Program-made: the position numbers and the translations under genes
The notes under the pieces: generated by a model
Databases searched by the model: none
What the model was told of the DNA's origin: nothing
The model's input: the letters and a program-made list of their open reading frames with translations, nothing else
Source: Symbiodinium natans
Taxonomy: Eukaryota > Sar > Dinophyceae > Suessiales > Symbiodiniaceae
DNA length: 64,000 nt
NCBI GenBank assembly: GCA_905221605.1
Contig: CAJNDS010002201.1
Coordinates: 281,022-345,021, forward strand
Direction of reading: 5' to 3'
Part shown: in pieces, positions 5,050 through 44,463 of the stretch
Numbering within the stretch: the stretch's first letter is position 1
How the letters are laid out: the number at the start of each line of letters is the position of its first letter

Positions 5050-5768
5050 TAACAATAATGATGAGAAGAACATAATACTAATAGTACTAATAGTTCTAAT
5101 AGTACTTTTAATAAGTACTAATAATACGAATCATACTACTACTAAAAATAATACAAATAATACAAACAATACTAATCATACTAATAATACTAATAATACT
5201 AATTAATACTAATAATACGAATAATACGAATAATACGAATCAATGCGAATAATACGAATTAATACGAATAATACGAATATACGAATAATACGAATACGAA
5301 GATACGAATTACTCATAATACTCATAATACTCATAATACTCATACTTACTCATACTACTCATACTACTCATACTACTCATAATACTCATAATACTCATAC
5401 TACTCATACTTCATACTACTCATACTACTCATACTCATAATCCTCATAATACTAATAATACTAATAATACTAATAATACTAATAATACTAATAATACTAA
5501 TAATACTATAATACTAATAATGCTAATAATTACTAATAATGCTAATCATACTAATAATACTAATAATACTAATAATACTAATAATCCTAATAATACTAAT
5601 AATACTAATAATACTAATAATACTAATAATACTAATAATACTAATAATACTAATAATACTAATAATAGTAATAATACTAATAATACTAGTAATACTAATA
5701 ATACTAATCATACTAATCATACTAATCATACTAATAATACTAATAATACTAATAATACTAATACCACC
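5050..5768. repeat. ATT-rich compound satellite (AATACTAAT family), about 720 bp
   Basis: The array drifts from ATAGTACTA and AATACGAAT units through ACTCATACT units to a long run of perfect ATAATACTA units. Its motifs change in blocks, so it expanded in several steps. It breaks a coding-like minus-strand interval. Confidence 0.95.
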
Positions 5769-5784
5769 AAGAACAATAGAAACA

Positions 5785-6209
5785 ATAAAAGATTTGTGAG
5801 GACTCCGGCGAAGCTCCTCGGTCTTCACTTCCAGCTTCTCAGTCTTCCCGTCTCTCAAAAGGATCTGAAGCCTTGCCAAAGCGGGCGACCCCTCGCAATG
5901 GGGACTGCCTTACTGTTGGTGAGTAGGCAATGAGGGAATGATCCCTTATATATAGGGGGATATAGGGTACCTCATTCCCTCATTCCCTACAAACCAACAC
6001 CAAGCTGCGAGACCACGCCTGGTGTCAGCAGGATCTCTCCCTATGCTGAAGGTTTTCTGTGCCTGCGCTCCCGATCGAAAGATCCAGGGTGCGCATGCAA
6101 GAGCGTGGCACCATGACGTCAGGTCCTCGTCTAAGGCAGTCTTCACCATCTCCGCAGTGTCGCCCACGGATGTGTCAAACCTAATCCGATGACGACATTG
6201 CCATGCCAT
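5785..6209 (-). CDS. Candidate exons, unknown product
   Basis: Minus-strand reading at 6209-5990 gives RIRFDTSVGDTAEMVKTAL and then SRDP-type polar sequence that looks coding. After an inverted-repeat element (5924-5989), a second piece at 5885-5785 reads ALARLQILLRDGKTEKLEV and then KTEELRRSPHKSF before entering the satellite. An intron containing the inverted repeat is the simplest link. No domain recognised. Confidence 0.3.
5924..5989. repeat. 66-bp inverted repeat (hairpin)
   Basis: The left arm TAGGCAATGAGGGAATGA (5924-5941) is matched by the right arm TCATTCCCTCATTCCCTA (5972-5989), with TATA-rich sequence between. It could be a small MITE of another family. No clear target duplication is seen. 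Confidence 0.55.
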
Positions 6210-13071: not shown

Positions 13072-14019
13072 CTACACGGTTTGGTATCCAAGCCGCTCCT
13101 GAAAAGATCGATATTGTGCAAGGAGGTCAGCCGGCAGGACTGAAGTGAAAGCTTGCAATGCCCTCGCCTCGCATTCAGGGTCGTTCTTGTGATCGTCTAC
13201 ACCATCCGGATAACGGTTGAGGTCTGCCCACTTCGATGCCTCCAAGCACTGCTGCCGGTCATCTTCCGAGATCATGTCGCCGAACAAGAAATCCACCATC
13301 TCTTCGGCTGCCTTGTCAAAGCCCTCAGAAGAAGCTGTGGCATTCTCATAGTCGAGGCGGAACCTGTCTGGGTGCGGAGCATCAAACATGTCGGTCATGT
13401 TCTGCACCATCGGAGCTGCTGCCTTTGCAACAAAGCTCAGCCCATCTGCGAAAGGGAGAGAAGCTACCGTAACCAGGGGCCACCCAGGAGGGAAGAATAT
13501 CGCATTGAAAATTTCTTCTCCGCGGGCGTGGTAGCAGTAAGCGGAGACAACCATGTTCACTGGGTTTCGAACGGTCCCTGCTACGCGGAGGCCTTTACCC
13601 CTCGCTTCTGCAAACTTCTGTGAAAGCTCCAAGGTCTCTGGTCCACACATGTCAATCATCACCTTGACCGGAGCTTCGACATTGCGACAGATGTTATAGC
13701 ATGGCTGAATCACAGCACCTTGGTCGGCATCGCCAGCGCCAAGTGTTGCAAACATGTACATCCACATCTTGTGCATCAGGTACACGCCAGACTTATGATG
13801 CACAGCAGCAACATAGTCGTAAATGTCCCACGGTGTCCGTAGACCAGATTTGGTTGCAACTGACTTTGTCCCTGCGAATCGTGCCTGTGCCCTTTTTTGG
13901 ACGAGGTTCGTTGCGCAAATCTCCTCAGCTTGGACTGAGCATGCTGAGCACAGAAGCAAAGCGAGCCAGAGTCCAGAAAATCCAGAGAGAGCTCGTCTCC
14001 ATGTATCCATTAGCCGCAT
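13072..14019 (-). CDS. Sulfotransferase-like secreted/luminal protein, copy A (315 aa)
   Basis: An intact single-exon frame of 315 codons. Residues 1-31 look like a signal peptide (hydrophobic core GLWLALLLCSACS). The 5'-phosphosulfate loop is HHKSGV at 74-79, and the 3'-phosphate motif is RNPVNMVVSAYCYH at 151-164 with R151 and S159 in the PAPS-binding positions. This is the layout of membrane/luminal sulfotransferases, which move sulfate from PAPS to sugars or proteins in the secretory pathway. The usual Thr after KSG is Val here. The acceptor substrate cannot be told. The gene has no introns, unlike every other recognised gene in the window except the BTB gene and copy B, so both copies may be retroposed. 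The C-terminus QYRSFQERLGYQTV is nearly identical to that of copy B. The first ATG follows a degenerate spliced-leader-like sequence (see findings). Confidence 0.8.
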   Translation of the reverse strand: MRLMDTWRRALSGFSGLWLALLLCSACSVQAEEICATNLVQKRAQARFAGTKSVATKSGLRTPWDIYDYVAAVHHKSGVYLMHKMWMYMFATLGAGDADQGAVIQPCYNICRNVEAPVKVMIDMCGPETLELSQKFAEARGKGLRVAGTVRNPVNMVVSAYCYHARGEEIFNAIFFPPGWPLVTVASLPFADGLSFVAKAAAPMVQNMTDMFDAPHPDRFRLDYENATASSEGFDKAAEEMVDFLFGDMISEDDRQQCLEASKWADLNRYPDGVDDHKNDPECEARALQAFTSVLPADLLAQYRSFQERLGYQTV

Positions 14020-14469
14020 TGGCTACTGACATGCGCTGCTCGGGGGATTTCGAGCAACACTGCGACAAGAGAATAACGACACGACCCCGCCCCCCCTCTG
14101 CAAAGTCGGCACCTTCCTCGTGTTCGTATGTGCTGCTAGAGACGAAACAAAAATGCGACGACATGGGGGCAACATCACTACCAGCACGGCTGCCAGAGAA
14201 TACGAAAGCAACTGATTGCACATCGCTGCAAGAAGGAAGCTCCGTACTCGCAGTCGGCAAGTGCTCTAGCATCTTCGCTTTAAGGGACGAAGCAACAATA
14301 GGAAGCAAGCTGCACAGGACCCGTGGAATTTCAGAACCAGACTATCACAAGCGGTCTCAACTCGGGACCACTAGACATGGTACTTGGTGGATGCATTTTT
14401 GGGCAGGGGCCTGACTTCCTTGCCAAGCGCGAGGGAACTCACCAATGCCTCTCAGCAGGCGAAGCCACC

Positions 14470-15378
14470 TTATGTGGCTGCATATCCTAGTCGCTCCTGG
14501 AATGAGCGGTAGCGTGACAGGATATCTGCAGGCAGTGAAGGCACGTACTTGCGCACTTCGTCCTCGCACTCTTGATTGTTCTGATGGTCATCGGTTGGCG
14601 GGTGACGATGCAAATCTGCCCATTTCGTTGCATTGAGAACCTGGCTGCGCTCTGCAGGGGTTATCAGGTCCTGGAACAAGAAGTTCATCATCTCTCCCAT
14701 CTGCTGGTCGAACCCGTCAGAAGATCTGGTGAGCTTCTCGTACTCCAGGCGGAAAGTATCATGGGATGGCTGCTCGAAGGCACTCGTCATGTTTTCAACT
14801 GCTGGCAGCATCCCCTCCGCAACAAGCTTGAGCCCTTCCTTTGGGCCCAAGACAACCAAGAGTGCTGCGGGGAAGAAAAGGATGCTGTCGAGCTCCTTGC
14901 CCCGATGGTGATAGCAGTATGCCGAGACAATCATGGACACCGGATCTCGCACGATTCCCACCACGCGCATGCCGTTTGCGCCGGCTGCTACCCGCTCTTC
15001 CTGCGCTTTGTCGTAGGAGTACATGTCAACCCATATCTGGATGGGAGCCTCAGGTGAGTAGCAGGTATGAGGATAGCAGGGCTGTATCCACATGCCCATG
15101 TCGCTCGTCGTCGCCCCAAGGGCAAAGAAGATCAGCTCCCATAGTTGGCCCATGACGTAAACACCGGACTTGTGATGTGCGACAGCGATGTACTTGTGCA
15201 TAAGCCATGGCTTCGAACGTGAACTTTGGGCTGTTGAAAGCGTGGACAGTGGAGCGAATCGTGGCAGCGCCTTCCTTTGGACGAAGTTCAGTGCATTGGA
15301 CTCTTCGGTAATGCCGGAACAGCAACAGACTGAATAATAGAGAAAAAGACAGGACCACAGTTGGGCAGCCGTCTGCAT
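14470..15378 (-). CDS. Sulfotransferase-like secreted/luminal protein, copy B (302 aa)
   Basis: A tandem paralogue of the gene at 13072-14019, in the same orientation with 450 bp between them. The frame is 302 codons with no intron. Residues 1-22 are hydrophobic and cysteine-rich (LWSCLFLYYSVCCCSG), a probable signal peptide or anchor. The PAPS-binding motifs are HHKSGV at 68-73 and RDPVSMIVSAYCYHHRG from 144, with R144 and S152 conserved. The pair shares IQPCY after the P-loop, KWADL.R.P..DDH...ECE near the end, and YRSFQERLGY at the C-terminus, with clear divergence elsewhere. This is an older duplication, not a recent gene conversion. Val replaces the KSGT threonine, as in copy A. The upstream 50 bases show no spliced-leader-like match. 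Confidence 0.8.
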   Translation of the reverse strand: MQTAAQLWSCLFLYYSVCCCSGITEESNALNFVQRKALPRFAPLSTLSTAQSSRSKPWLMHKYIAVAHHKSGVYVMGQLWELIFFALGATTSDMGMWIQPCYPHTCYSPEAPIQIWVDMYSYDKAQEERVAAGANGMRVVGIVRDPVSMIVSAYCYHHRGKELDSILFFPAALLVVLGPKEGLKLVAEGMLPAVENMTSAFEQPSHDTFRLEYEKLTRSSDGFDQQMGEMMNFLFQDLITPAERSQVLNATKWADLHRHPPTDDHQNNQECEDEVRKYVPSLPADILSRYRSFQERLGYAAT

Positions 15379-15419
15379 GGCGATAGGAACGGGAAACGCA
15401 TGAGTATGTAGGTCAGGCT

Positions 15420-21280: not shown

Positions 21281-22225
21281 TCATCCGAATTGCTCGAGGT
21301 GTTTGGACGAAGCTGGTCTGAGAACGCGGGCAGCGCCTCTAAGGCCATCCCGAGGCGGGAGCTCATGGAAGGGGCGCACGACAATAGGCCGCCCGTCTAG
21401 CATGGCATCATGCAGCAGCAGTGCTTTATCGGCAGCTTCCAGGGAGGCGAACGTCACCTTGCCGAAGCCTTGCAAGGGGTTAACCCTTTGCTGCCAGGAA
21501 GATGGGGAACCCACGTCACAAATGTGCTACAGCTCCAAAAGAGTTCCCTTGTTTTCGAACATCCCCGACAGTCAGTAGGTATGTGGCGGTCGAAAGCTGA
21601 GAAAACGCGCTGTGGAGTCTAGGATGGTAGAGGCTCCTTGGCTGCCGAGTTTCAAACAGTAGCTACAGGTCCGGGTTGCGTTGGCTCTGCCAAGGGCCAT
21701 CTAGAGTGTGGTTTTTTTAAATTTTTTTTTAGGGAGCTGGACAAGCTTGAGACTTGAGACCAGCCCACGCGATGAGGTTGCAAAAGCGCTCGCCTTGAAA
21801 ACCCCGCCATCCCAAGATGCATGATCCTTCGGCCCTGAACTCAACATTTCACCCCAAGTCAAGCAGACGACCGTTGGCTTTCTTCTGACCCTGCATGAAG
21901 ATTCTACAAGGAATCCCGTCTGTTTCTCAACTCGACAGCCGCAAGCCGCAAGCCCGTAGCCTCGTGAACGACCTGTACCGCGGTCCATGGAGACGTCTGC
22001 TGACACAACAGCACCGCAACTTCCAAAGAAGTCGTACAGCCTGTCGCTTGTAGTTGCCCAGCAAAGTCCAGCAACGAACACGCATGGAGAAACCTTTGCA
22101 GATGGCTGAGAAGGCGCCGTCGTTCCTTGCAGATGCTGCTGAATTTCCTCCTTCGTGAACTCCCCGGCAAACTCCCTGGCCAGATCAGCTACGGTGTAGC
22201 CTGACTTGCTCGCAGCGGTGGTCAT
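21281..22225 (-). CDS. Small RNA-recognition-motif (RRM) protein, two exons
   Basis: The first exon runs from the ATG at 22225 to 21961 and carries a short N-terminal helix-like region (YTVADLAREFAGEFTKEEIQ), then RNP2 as VFVAGL at residues 50-55. A 492-bp GC-AG intron (21960-21469) splits the domain exactly inside RNP1. Joining the exons gives RGFGKVTF, a canonical RNP1, and then the closing strand LDGRPIVVRPFHE. The second exon runs 21468-21281 and ends in a stop after SSKHLEQFG, giving about 151 residues with one RRM. The protein should bind single-stranded RNA; splicing, transport or translation roles are all possible. The second exon may instead splice on to sequence near 21280-21060, where another open frame overlaps, so the C-terminus is less certain. 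Confidence 0.85.
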
Positions 22226-22319
22226 GTTCGAAAGATCACGGCGCCATCTACAAGCAAGAATGCGCACGTTGGCTTCTATGACGAGCCAAGAAGAGCACGG
22301 CGCAGAAACGTTCACAACA

Positions 22320-23725
22320 GAACAGTCTCTGACAAGGCTCAGGCAAACTTGACAGCAGCCCTACGAGCATTGGCCTGTTAACAGGACGCGCTCTTTGTGG
22401 AGTAGCCGTGGAAGTCCTGCATGATTCTTCAGCATGCGAAAGATTGTGTGGGCTCGATGATGTTCAAACTTCAGAGTTCGCCGCGTCATGGCATCCTGAA
22501 CGGACAGCTGTGTAAGCAGCCAGGCCAACTCTGCGCTTCATCAGCCTCGCCGCAGCTTTGACAATTGGGGGGTGACCCTGATATCTGATACCTGATAGCA
22601 GGCCTTGCTGGACCAACGTATCCTATGCAGTGGGCCGAATAACAGTTGAGCCAAAGCTGCCCGCGTTACTGGTGCACAATAGCCTACGCAAGCAGTGGGA
22701 TTGAGTTGCAAACTCTCACGAGCCATAGCTTACGTCTACCTTGACCATCGCAACGACCGATGTTTTCAGGGCATGGGCAAAATGGCAATACTTGCCCCGC
22801 TTGCCCCACTTGCTCTGATCTGGAAGCGGGAACCGATATGACATGTGTCACCTGTCCGACATGCCCTGTCTGCCCACCAAGTCCGCCTAATTGATGGCAA
22901 CCCTTTTTCTGAAGCCTAAGGTCTGCAAGCAAAGGGGCAGCTTGCACACGGCCTCGCTTTGGGCTGACTGTGAGGCAGACTTGTGGCTACTGTGTGGGTG
23001 GGGGTTGCCCCACTTTGACCCACTCGTTTGTCCTTCACATCAGGGTGACTTTTGTGGGCAGGAGGCGGGGACTTGCCCGCACTAGCGGTGGGGAGGTCTT
23101 GCCTCGCTTTGACCTGGCCCCCGCTACAAGTCTGCCTCACATTTGTGGCTAATCTGGGGGTTGGCTAAGGATGCGATATCTCGTCCCGGCGGGTAATTAA
23201 GCGCAAACCTATTGCCCATGGGGCCCAACTTGAATGTATGTCGTAGCTCTGCAACACGTGGCATATTGTGTCATTCTCCTGGGGCGCTGCGCTACAATAC
23301 ACATAAAAAGCTTCTCTGCTCCTCATCTTGTTTGTGCTTCACTGCAGTGCCGTGCGCATCAACCGACGTGCTGTACAGAGGTGGGACATATGTACAAACC
23401 CTGCATAGTACAGCTGCGTATCGAGAGCATCTCGCACAGCTCCCTGCTCAGGGCAGAAGTGGGTGCCTGCGCAGCAGCGACTGCTTGTAGCTGGCACTTG
23501 GCTGATGACTGCGTTGCTACACTCAAGGCTGTCAAGGCACATCAAGGAACAAGGGCAAAGCTTGCCGTAGACCCAAACAGTGCACGACACTCCCGAGCAC
23601 ACCCAGGGTTTCAAAGGAACAGCAAGAAGCCCTCCAAGTTGCTCCAAGAGTTCACGCTCCTCGAGTGTAAATCATCACCGACGCCTGAATCCTGCTGGAG
23701 CTTGGACTGACCAAAACCAGCAGGC
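22320..23725. other. No gene supported
   Basis: Frames of 60-160 codons overlap on both strands. At 22790-23160 the sequence is G/C-skewed, with related phrases TTGTGGCTACTGTGTGGG and TTT-GTGGCTAATCTGGGGG about 170 bp apart, perhaps a diverged duplication. Confidence 0.35.
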
Positions 23726-41481: not shown

Positions 41482-44463
41482 TCACGGGGACCCGTCACTG
41501 AGCGAGGACTTCGGCGACGACATCGGCTTGGCCTTCCGGCCCTTTTTTGATTCTGGGACTGGAATGACAGGGAGCTCTGCAACCACAGTGCCGTCCCCAG
41601 ACCTCCAAATGACGTCTGGCATGTGGCTATCCAGCTGCCCCTCCTCTCGCTCGGCACTGTAGAAGCAAGTGCGTGGCCTTCGCTGGTCTCGGTTTTCAGC
41701 CGAAAGAGCTACGCCTCGATTGGAGACAAACTCTCTGAGAATGCTGAAGACGAGCTCGGACTCCCGATCGTCGAAGTTCATCAGCGGCTTCTCCAGAATC
41801 ATAATCTCAGGGTTCATCACCAGGGCGCGTGCGATGTGCAGTTTGGCCTTCTCCTGGAAGGACAGCGACTCCTGCCAGCCATGCAAAGCTGAGGCCACCC
41901 GCTTGGCGCGCGCGGAGCCGTCTGGCGGGGTCCATCGAGCATGGGGCGGGGATGCCTCTGCCACCTGACTGCTCCCACAGCAGCAACAGCAGGAGCCATC
42001 CTCCGAGCCCTCCTCTTCCGAGACCGGCTCCTGTAAAATCTCGATCTCGCTCTCGGCAAGTGCTCGCGTTCGAGACATCCGAAGTTTGTCCAGAATCCAC
42101 ATCAGGCGATGTCGCTCCTCTGGATGCGAGATAGCACTGGGGTCGCCAAAGAAGAGGTTCTGCAAAGGAGAGCCATACATCAAAAAGACCTGGTGGGTAA
42201 CAAGCAGGCATCGCAGGTGTGAAGGTATGAGCACCTTCCCACTGGTGGGAGGGATTCCGCTGGCCAGCATTTTGATCAGCTTTGTCTTGCCGGAGCCATG
42301 TTGGCCGATCAAAGCGACAAGCTTGCCCTGCTCGACCGACAAGTTCACACCGTGGAACAGATCGTTGTGCATGGATGGCAACTTGAAAGCCAGGTTGTCC
42401 AAGCGTATCGGAATCATGTCAGTGCGCACCATGCCGACATTGCTTGGTATTGATAGGTGCATCAGCTTCTTCCGCTGCTCACCTGTCTCCAAAATGCGTC
42501 CGTTCACCAACTCTTTCAAGTCTCCAACATCGGTCGGCCGGTTCAAAAACACAGTCACTTCGAGCAAAGGCTCGAACTTGGCGATCACACTCTTCATCAT
42601 TGCAAACCCATCCGCGAAGTTTGAGCTGACCTCTTTGAATACGGAGATCGTCGCCAAGAACCTCAGCGAGCAAAACTCGACACGTGTGAATCAAATGACA
42701 ACTCTTGGAGCACATGGCTCCTAACAAGACATCACGCAACCAAGCAATCTCCTCTGCTGGTGTACTTAGGGCAGTTTGCGCTGTCGCATGCTGTCGGCGA
42801 AATGACAGGATAGCCCACTGAGCCCACGGCGTTCCCAGCGAAAGGGAGCCGGAAATGACTTGGGGTGAGTAGAAGCACAGGTAGAAGCCAGAGAAGAAAG
42901 GCCCCAGCCAGGTGAAGAAGAACTCGCTGCGCATGTCGTAGATCCCCAAAGGTTCCTGTACCTCTCCGAACTTAACACTAAGATGTAGTAAGATCTGTGA
43001 GGGCGCTGTGCTTTGTTGGCCTTTATTGGCCTCTATTGGCTTTATAGAAAAGGGGGCCAGGGCTTACTCGTGCATGCTCCATGCCAAGGTCTATTCCGGC
43101 TTGCCTCGGAGAGCTTGGTGACGCGAGCGGCAAACCTCTCGTTCATGGCGGGGCGCTGGAAGTAGCCGGCAATGAGCGGGTAGAACTCACTGATTGCACT
43201 CACAAGTTCAGAAACCTCCTTCTTGTATGCATCGTCTTTCTCAGGCTTTCTCAACCACACTTGGCGTAGGAGCACCCAGAAGGTCATTACCACCGGCATT
43301 GTGATTACAGCCCAGAGCATGCCTGGGTCGCTTGAGACGGCAAAGTAGTTGAGCATGACCAGCTTTCCCAGCGTCTCTAACAAAGAAGACACGTCATTGA
43401 GGCTCGACGCCAGCTCTACGGCATCTTTGTTCACGATCTTTTGGACCTCGTGCTGCGTGACCGCAGCTCGGGAATCATCGCTGAAGTTCATGTACTTCCT
43501 CATCAAGCTAGTCTGCAAGAAGAAGCTGCAGCGGCCTTCGATGTCCATCCTCGTTTTGGCCTCCCTCCACATGTGCAAGATCAGGGGAAGGCCAATATAC
43601 ATCAATCCCAGCAACTGCGCGGTTTTCTCGGGATTTTGCGGGATGAACAGCTCGTCCGAGTGGTCACCAAAGATCACATTGACCATGTACACGGAAGACA
43701 CAAGCATGAACCAAACATATGCGTTCTTGAACTGGTCAAAGAGCAAGATCACGGCAAATCGCCAGCCGTTCCCAGGCACGCGAAGCATCAGCTGGCAAAA
43801 CTCCAAAAAGAGCGGGGCGGGGTTGATGGCCTCAATGGCCTCGGGCCCCAAAGCTGCAGTCTCGGCATACGAGCTGCTTGGAAAGCTATCCCTGTCCAAG
43901 ACTTTGACACGGCAGACCTTCAGGTACTTGCCCAAAGAGCAGCCCATTGGGGCCGTCAGCACGACCTTGAACTCGAGGGTTGCAGACCAGGTCGGCGAAT
44001 CCAAAATCTCGATGTCAACGCTCTGCTGAAACTGGCCATCCTCGAAGACGACCTCACCCTCCGCGTGGACAAAACGCATTCCCGCTTTGGCAGAGCTCGC
44101 TTCTGTTTGGAAGTAGCAGCTGACGCGTCCAGCCAGCGACCCCAGACGCATGACCTTGACACTGAAGGCCTCACCCTCTTCAGCAACAAAGATTGGAGCT
44201 GCGAACTGCAGAATGTCTAAAGATTCTGCGCTGCTCGAGAGCTGAGAATCGAAGTCGTTGGAGTCCAGAGGGCTGTAATGAAAGCCATCAGTGAAGCGGA
44301 GCTCTCGGCTCTCCTGGCGCTTGGCTGTTTTCCCACCGCACACGCCCATTCTATCCGCAGCTGTTTCACTGCAGGTAGGCCGACTTGAGCCAGTGCCGCG
44401 AAAAGTGTCAAAGGCTGCGTGCGACAAAGCTGCAGTCGAACAGGAGCGGTTGCAGCAACGCAT
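41482..44463 (-). CDS. Calx-beta domain fused to an ABC half-transporter with degenerate ATPase
   Basis: Three exons (44463-43105, 42961-42831, 42661-41482), joined by GC-AG introns of 143 and 169 bp, give 889 residues from the first ATG. A second ATG at 44349 begins MGVCGGK, an N-myristoylation-like start, and would give 851. Residues about 80-195 form a Calx-beta domain (FVAEEGEAFSVKVMR, VDIEILD, CRVKVLDRD), best known from Na/Ca exchangers and integrins. An ABC-type membrane domain follows, with hydrophobic segments near residues 235-265, 285-305, 375-400 and in exon 2, and a conserved coupling-helix-like stretch around FSDDSRAAVTQHEV. Exon 3 holds the nucleotide-binding domain: Walker A GQHGSGKTK and signature LSFQEKAKLHIARAL. 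Walker B reads IMILEKP, with lysine where the catalytic glutamate should be, and no H-loop histidine is visible. It may be a pseudo-ATPase, a heterodimer partner or a regulator. Confidence 0.85.

Follow-up and report, generated by a model that had tools for sequence, protein, structure and literature searches.

In the Type IV ABC half-exporters (the ABCB-like proteins, the bacterial transporters with a peptidase domain and related ones), a membrane region is followed by a nucleotide-binding domain (NBD). Degenerate-site exporters, among them TAP1/TAP2, Pdr5, the ABCC family and CFTR, show changes in the catalytic Glu, the signature and the H-loop and often keep Walker A; in the cases treated in the accessible part of the source, these changes are gathered in one composite site, and the second site is of canonical form (PMC7756269). 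In the Na/Ca exchangers NCX1 and CALX, Calx-beta domains (CBD1 and CBD2) act as regulatory domains on a membrane transporter. The ABC proteins of dinoflagellate algae have been little studied; three ABC transporters, ABCB1, ABCC1 and ABCG2, were cloned from Prorocentrum lima, and the word Calx-beta does not occur in that paper (PMC6563122). We describe here a further dinoflagellate ABC protein, from Symbiodinium natans, which differs from these in that a Calx-beta domain stands ahead of a membrane region with a weak likeness to ABC exporters and of a degenerate NBD. Its gene lies in a stretch of 64,000 nucleotides (the window) at positions 281,022 to 345,021 of contig CAJNDS010002201.1 (C1889 below), and relatives were searched for in the whole assembly of 759 Mb and 2543 contigs. 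Our preferred reading, to which we give roughly an even chance, is that this protein is a member of a family in which Calx-beta is fused ahead of an ABC-exporter half-molecule, with an NBD that probably does not hydrolyse ATP and with a regulatory or scaffold role.

The gene (851 amino acids, positions 41482..44349 of the window, on the minus strand like all its parts given below) was delimited by its open frames, by Pfam matches and by comparison with a paralog. Exon 1 (43105..44349) encodes residues 1-415, comprising the N-terminal tail, Calx-beta and the beginning of the membrane region; exon 2 (42831..42961) contains candidate transmembrane helix 5; exon 3 (41482..42661) contains the rest of candidate helix 6, the NBD, the C-terminal tail and the stop. 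The exons are separated by two GC-AG introns, one of 143 bases in phase 0 (42962..43104) and one of 169 bases (42662..42830). Many in-frame splice pairs are possible in this gene, and the choice among them is settled by the paralog. This copy, on the same strand some 86 kb from the window gene (C1889:233550-236453), is 61% identical to it (509/828). The paralog holds residues 1-542 in a single exon, which begins with MGLCGGKS and reads KLSDVR... and LSLGTFLATISVFKEV without interruption at the sites of the window introns; both splice junctions are thereby confirmed. Splicing is not what joins the parts: one exon carries Calx-beta together with the membrane region as far as residue 415, and the paralog continues in frame across both intron sites. 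Calx-beta and the ABC parts really belong to one gene, and an artefact of joining two genes is ruled out by the paralog's single exon.

A preliminary description of the locus had placed Calx-beta ahead of an ABC membrane region and an NBD in one three-exon gene with two introns; neither the degeneracy of the NBD nor the existence of relatives figures in that description. This architecture is borne out by the domain matches and the frames, and the intron sites by the intronless exon of the paralog. The start that it proposed, at 44463, has to be moved: the frame of the paralog opens ERNKA-MGLCGGKS directly after a stop, so that the start of the window gene is most likely at 44349. The resulting N-terminus, MGVCGG (44332..44349), resembles an N-myristoylation/palmitoylation signal, and the start MG(V/L)CGGK is common to the window gene and the paralog. 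The two introns were either gained in the window gene or lost from the paralog, whose position on the same contig and strand suggests a local duplication.

The NBD matches ABC_tran (PF00005) in the spliced protein with an E-value of 3.3e-13 and 50.8 bits, against a curated cut-off of 25, over residues 562-751; the last exon of the paralog alone reaches 16.7 bits, under the cut-off. When aligned to six bacterial exporters, the domain keeps Walker A, intact as GQHGSGKT (42283..42306), and the Asp of the D-loop. All five elements of the set that we took to mark catalytic competence are changed. The Q-loop Gln is replaced by His (residue 615, 42193..42195); the signature reads LSFQE instead of LSGGQ (41851..41865); Walker B reads IMILEK (41788..41805), with Glu for the Asp and Lys for the catalytic Glu; and the switch His corresponds to Glu (residue 781), a placement that depends on one alignment. 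In the six bacterial exporters the Q-loop Gln, the Walker B Asp, the catalytic Glu and the switch His are present in every case, and SGG in five. Directly after the position of the switch His stands the motif RRPRT (41668..41682), invariant in all five family members that were aligned. With the Type IV half-exporters the window protein shares the order of membrane region and NBD, and it aligns to them in the stretch around helices 4-6 and at Walker A; it differs from them in the N-terminal Calx-beta domain and in the five changed catalytic motifs; compared with degenerate-site exporters, both kinds of change, in Walker B and in the signature, fall on one NBD, and RRPRT and Calx-beta are additional.

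The altered NBD is under selection, as judged from the comparison of the two C1889 paralogs and from the invariance of RRPRT. Of nine segments compared, the one that contains RRPRT and the altered signature and Walker B has the highest identity, 64 of 80 positions (80%). The proportion of nonsynonymous differences per nonsynonymous site (pN) is 0.22 over residues 600-821 (212 codons), where the corresponding synonymous proportion (pS) is saturated at 0.82; over residues 1-542 (541 codons) the values are 0.25 and 0.77, and for the whole comparison 0.24, with pS saturated at 0.78. Altered NBD motifs are also found, where visible, in more distant relatives on contigs C24 and C513 (two genes in tandem), on C2499 (the signature only, MSKSE) and, by eye, on C1112. 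A family search of the same genome returned 20 NBD places, 18 of them of full length; each of these 18 has Walker A, LSGGQ and the Walker B Asp-Glu intact, as well as the switch His (read by eye). This count shows only that canonical NBDs exist in the genome, because ten of the 18 belong to one near-identical tandem array and because the search ranks the most canonical places first. The array, at C92:195382-221155 (loci L043-L047 and L055-L059), is a tandem of ABC genes with two NBD types, five of each, spaced by about 5 kb.

The Calx-beta domain occupies residues 44-156 (43882..44220). It matches PF03160 over residues 48-135 with an E-value of 3.5e-10 and 40.4 bits, against a curated cut-off of 27, and among solved structures it matches the Na/Ca exchanger domains, with 3rb7 as the best (E 1.3e-13) and CBD2 of CALX as the closest solved domain. 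For the calcium-site residues, the columns of E385 and D498-D500 were set from a fragment of CALX CBD1, with an NCX1 numbering that is in part our assumption, and the column of D421 was taken as 'SDY' on the basis of its distance from K454 in the 3us9 fragment. In NCX1 CBD1, E385, D446, D447, E451 and D498-D500 coordinate Ca2+ at sites Ca2-Ca4, D421 coordinates at Ca2 in the isolated domain, and E454 was counted as a residue of site Ca1 because the E454K replacement takes the place of that ion (PMC3386913, in its accessible part). Four of these nine positions are kept in the window protein (E385, D446, D498 and D500), a set that is not required of every PF03160 member and in which the E385 column is unsafe, since the near paralog and the two C513 genes have K, A and C there with a Glu at least one residue away. 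The other five are substituted: D421 by Arg, D447 by Ser, E451 by Ser, E454 by Leu and D499 by Arg. Because these ligands are changed and because the nearest solved domain, CALX CBD2, is described as not binding Ca2+ (PMC4746289, accessible part), the window protein is unlikely to be a calcium sensor; a role of Calx-beta in localisation or protein contact is possible. Both C513 genes have Asp at the D447, E451 and D498-D500 positions, and these relatives may sense calcium. The window protein shares the Calx-beta sequence with NCX1 and CALX, and differs from them in several Ca2+ ligands and in giving no Pfam match to Na_Ca_ex (PF01699) at E-values up to 1. In the same genome at least ten Na_Ca_ex places were found on six contigs, none of which is among the seven contigs that carry the Calx-beta places reported below.

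The membrane region (residues 186-485, 42583..43794, a span that includes both introns) is the part of the preliminary assignment that stands in a weaker form. No match to ABC_membrane (PF00664) was obtained in Pfam, even when the region was searched alone at E-values up to 10. In hhalign, the region taken by itself aligned to the six bacterial exporters over 104 columns with a score of 49.1 (E 1.1e-5), and none of 30 shuffles scored above 20.0; the aligned columns span both splice junctions and cover only the part around helices 4-6. The near paralog has a PF00664 match in the expected place with an E-value of 0.017 and 15.2 bits, under the cut-off of 28, and the pair of paralogs together with a relative on contig C1975 scored 43.3 under a different column rule. 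The region may therefore be called ABC-exporter-like, weakly but above the shuffles. Hydropathy suggests candidate helices at about residues 210-228, 243-261, 320-338, 343-361, 429-447 and 449-467; at a threshold of 1.4 three helix-like segments are obtained, and at 0.6 nineteen, so that the count of six leans on the exporter pattern.

Besides the window gene, six further loci in this genome combine Calx-beta with ABC parts, two of them on weak matches, and two more are probable. In addition to the near paralog and the relatives on C24 and C513, C2499 shows weak matches to a Calx-beta fragment, to membrane pieces and to an NBD signature fragment, and C1112 has a single open frame of 1385 amino acids, whose residues 585-703 match Calx-beta (E 2.8e-5; 24.6 bits, where the cut-off is 27) and whose residues 1211-1283 form an NBD remnant (E 0.0037 to DppF). 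The C1975 locus is a probable member: a Calx-beta match (E 1.2e-11) is followed by a frame of 616 amino acids that has hydrophobic stretches and ...EKALFDIARGLLADPEILI and gives no Pfam match; pieces related to this frame occur on C236. The other probable member, seen with the same matches in the two contigs C1992 and C2279, has Calx-beta and membrane parts, and no NBD was found within the 4 kb stretch of C2279 that was examined. In all, these loci look like a small family of repurposed transporters.

The Pfam search of the assembly gave at least eight Calx-beta places on seven contigs. Of those listed, four lie in loci with ABC parts (two on C1889, one of them the window gene, and one each on C513 and C1112) and one in the probable C1975 case; the places on C1360, C1772 and C2269 have no ABC match. 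When the window protein was compared by tblastn with ten genome stretches, nothing was found at C1360, C1772 or C1112, and C2269 gave a Calx-beta fragment alone (E 0.67); C1112 was recognised solely from its own open frame. Beyond the Pfam places, protein searches added C24, the second C513 gene, C2499 and C1992/C2279. Pattern matches in viral contigs (7, 3 and 174) and prokaryote genomes (58), collections not built for dinoflagellates, gave no relative confirmed by tblastn. The dinoflagellate spliced-leader 21-mer has 205 exact occurrences in the assembly, 104 on the forward and 101 on the reverse strand, and its reversed control has none; this marks the genome as that of a dinoflagellate, the origin that the preliminary description had implied.

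On our preferred reading, the N-terminus MGVCGGK would be acylated and, together with the helices, would keep Calx-beta at the membrane, on its cytosolic face. Dimers would form through the membrane region and the NBD. Nucleotide binding at Walker A may persist, but this NBD would complete a standard hydrolytic site neither with its Walker B/switch side nor with its signature side. With the Walker B and signature changes on the same NBD, such a site would be missing both in a homodimer and in a pair with a canonical partner. The window protein would then not be a pump; it would serve some other transporter or channel as a regulatory or scaffold subunit that senses nucleotide, with Calx-beta as a protein-contact module and, in some relatives, perhaps as a Ca2+-sensing one. 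Several points weigh against this reading. Acylation and cytosolic topology are guesses from the motif and from family knowledge, and the evidence base is the DNA sequence of one genome of one species. Single-sequence AlphaFold models of exon 1 and of exon 3 had mean predicted local distance difference test scores of 38.8 and 35.2 and confirmed no fold. The support for the membrane domain comes from helices 4-6 alone; in hhalign the scores fall to 27.4 for the near paralog by itself and to 37.9 for the pair, where 30 column shuffles of the pair stayed at or below 21.0, and the C1975 relative by itself scored 14.1, no better than chance. Moreover, degenerate-site transporters such as Pdr5 still pump with their other site canonical (PMC7756269), so that altered motifs alone do not exclude transport.

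The main rival is a heterodimeric pump, which we regard as rather unlikely. Here the window protein would contribute a degenerate site and a canonical half-transporter partner would hydrolyse ATP, as in TAP or Pdr5, with Calx-beta regulating or localising the pair. Walker A is intact in the window gene and in the near paralog (GRAGSGKT), canonical ABC genes are present in the same genome, and degenerate sites, which often bind ATP, occur widely among exporters, but the cases described there leave one composite site intact (PMC7756269, accessible part), whereas in the window protein LSFQE would face the site of the partner. Some relatives are, moreover, further altered: Walker A is GPHDSGKM in both C513 genes, and none was seen by eye in the C1975 frame. 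A working exporter gated directly by Ca2+ on its own Calx-beta domain, as the preliminary description had suggested, is improbable. The strong match to the NCX regulatory domains and the Asp residues kept in the C513 relatives would fit it; the window gene itself has five calcium-site residues changed, resembles most closely a solved domain without Ca2+ binding and has lost the catalytic residues of its NBD. The least credible of the alternatives is a decaying copy, in which the altered motifs are simply damage. Motif loss does differ in degree among the relatives, and the C1975 one, lacking a Pfam ABC match, is barely recognisable as an ABC protein, but the frame of the window gene is open throughout its three exons, pN is far below a saturated pS, no segment is better conserved than the altered catalytic one, and RRPRT does not vary among the five aligned members.

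A broader scheme can be proposed tentatively, with clearly less confidence than the regulatory or scaffold role. An ABC exporter would have given rise to a dinoflagellate family of non-pumping membrane proteins with a Calx-beta sensor, in which the fold and Walker A would form a nucleotide switch, RRPRT would be a new element beside the lost switch His, and Ca2+-binding members of the C513 type and Ca2+-blind members of the window type would act as paired sensors or subunits, in a logic like that of SUR or CFTR. If true, an ABC exporter fold has been kept under selection after losing its engine and has been tied to a calcium-regulation domain. RRPRT beside the lost switch histidine gives a possible pseudo-ABC subfamily a concrete mark that can be tested, and, since relatives in one genome differ in their Ca2+-site residues, natural members lend themselves to a comparison of calcium dependence. 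In the literature covered, which leaves out most subscription papers, we found no description of Calx-beta with an ABC transporter in dinoflagellates or Symbiodiniaceae, nor of dinoflagellate ABC transporters with a degenerate Walker B. Among the papers listed, those that name Calx-beta and ABC transporters concern, to judge by their titles, bacterial adhesins, bacterial genomes, calcium (a review) and a fungal receptor, and those that name Calx-beta with dinoflagellates or Symbiodinium concern sponges and Microcystis; the architecture may already be listed in protein databases such as InterPro.

Elsewhere in the window, two neighbouring open frames of about 315 amino acids, similar to each other, lie on the minus strand at 13072-14022 and 14470-15417, both with HHKSGVY; they gave no Pfam match at E-values up to 0.01 and may be sulfotransferase-like. 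An RNA recognition motif (RRM_1, E 1.3e-8) is encoded by an open frame at 21701-22357 on the minus strand, and an AT-rich microsatellite lies at about 5337-5933, where an open frame reads long (N)NT-type repeats.
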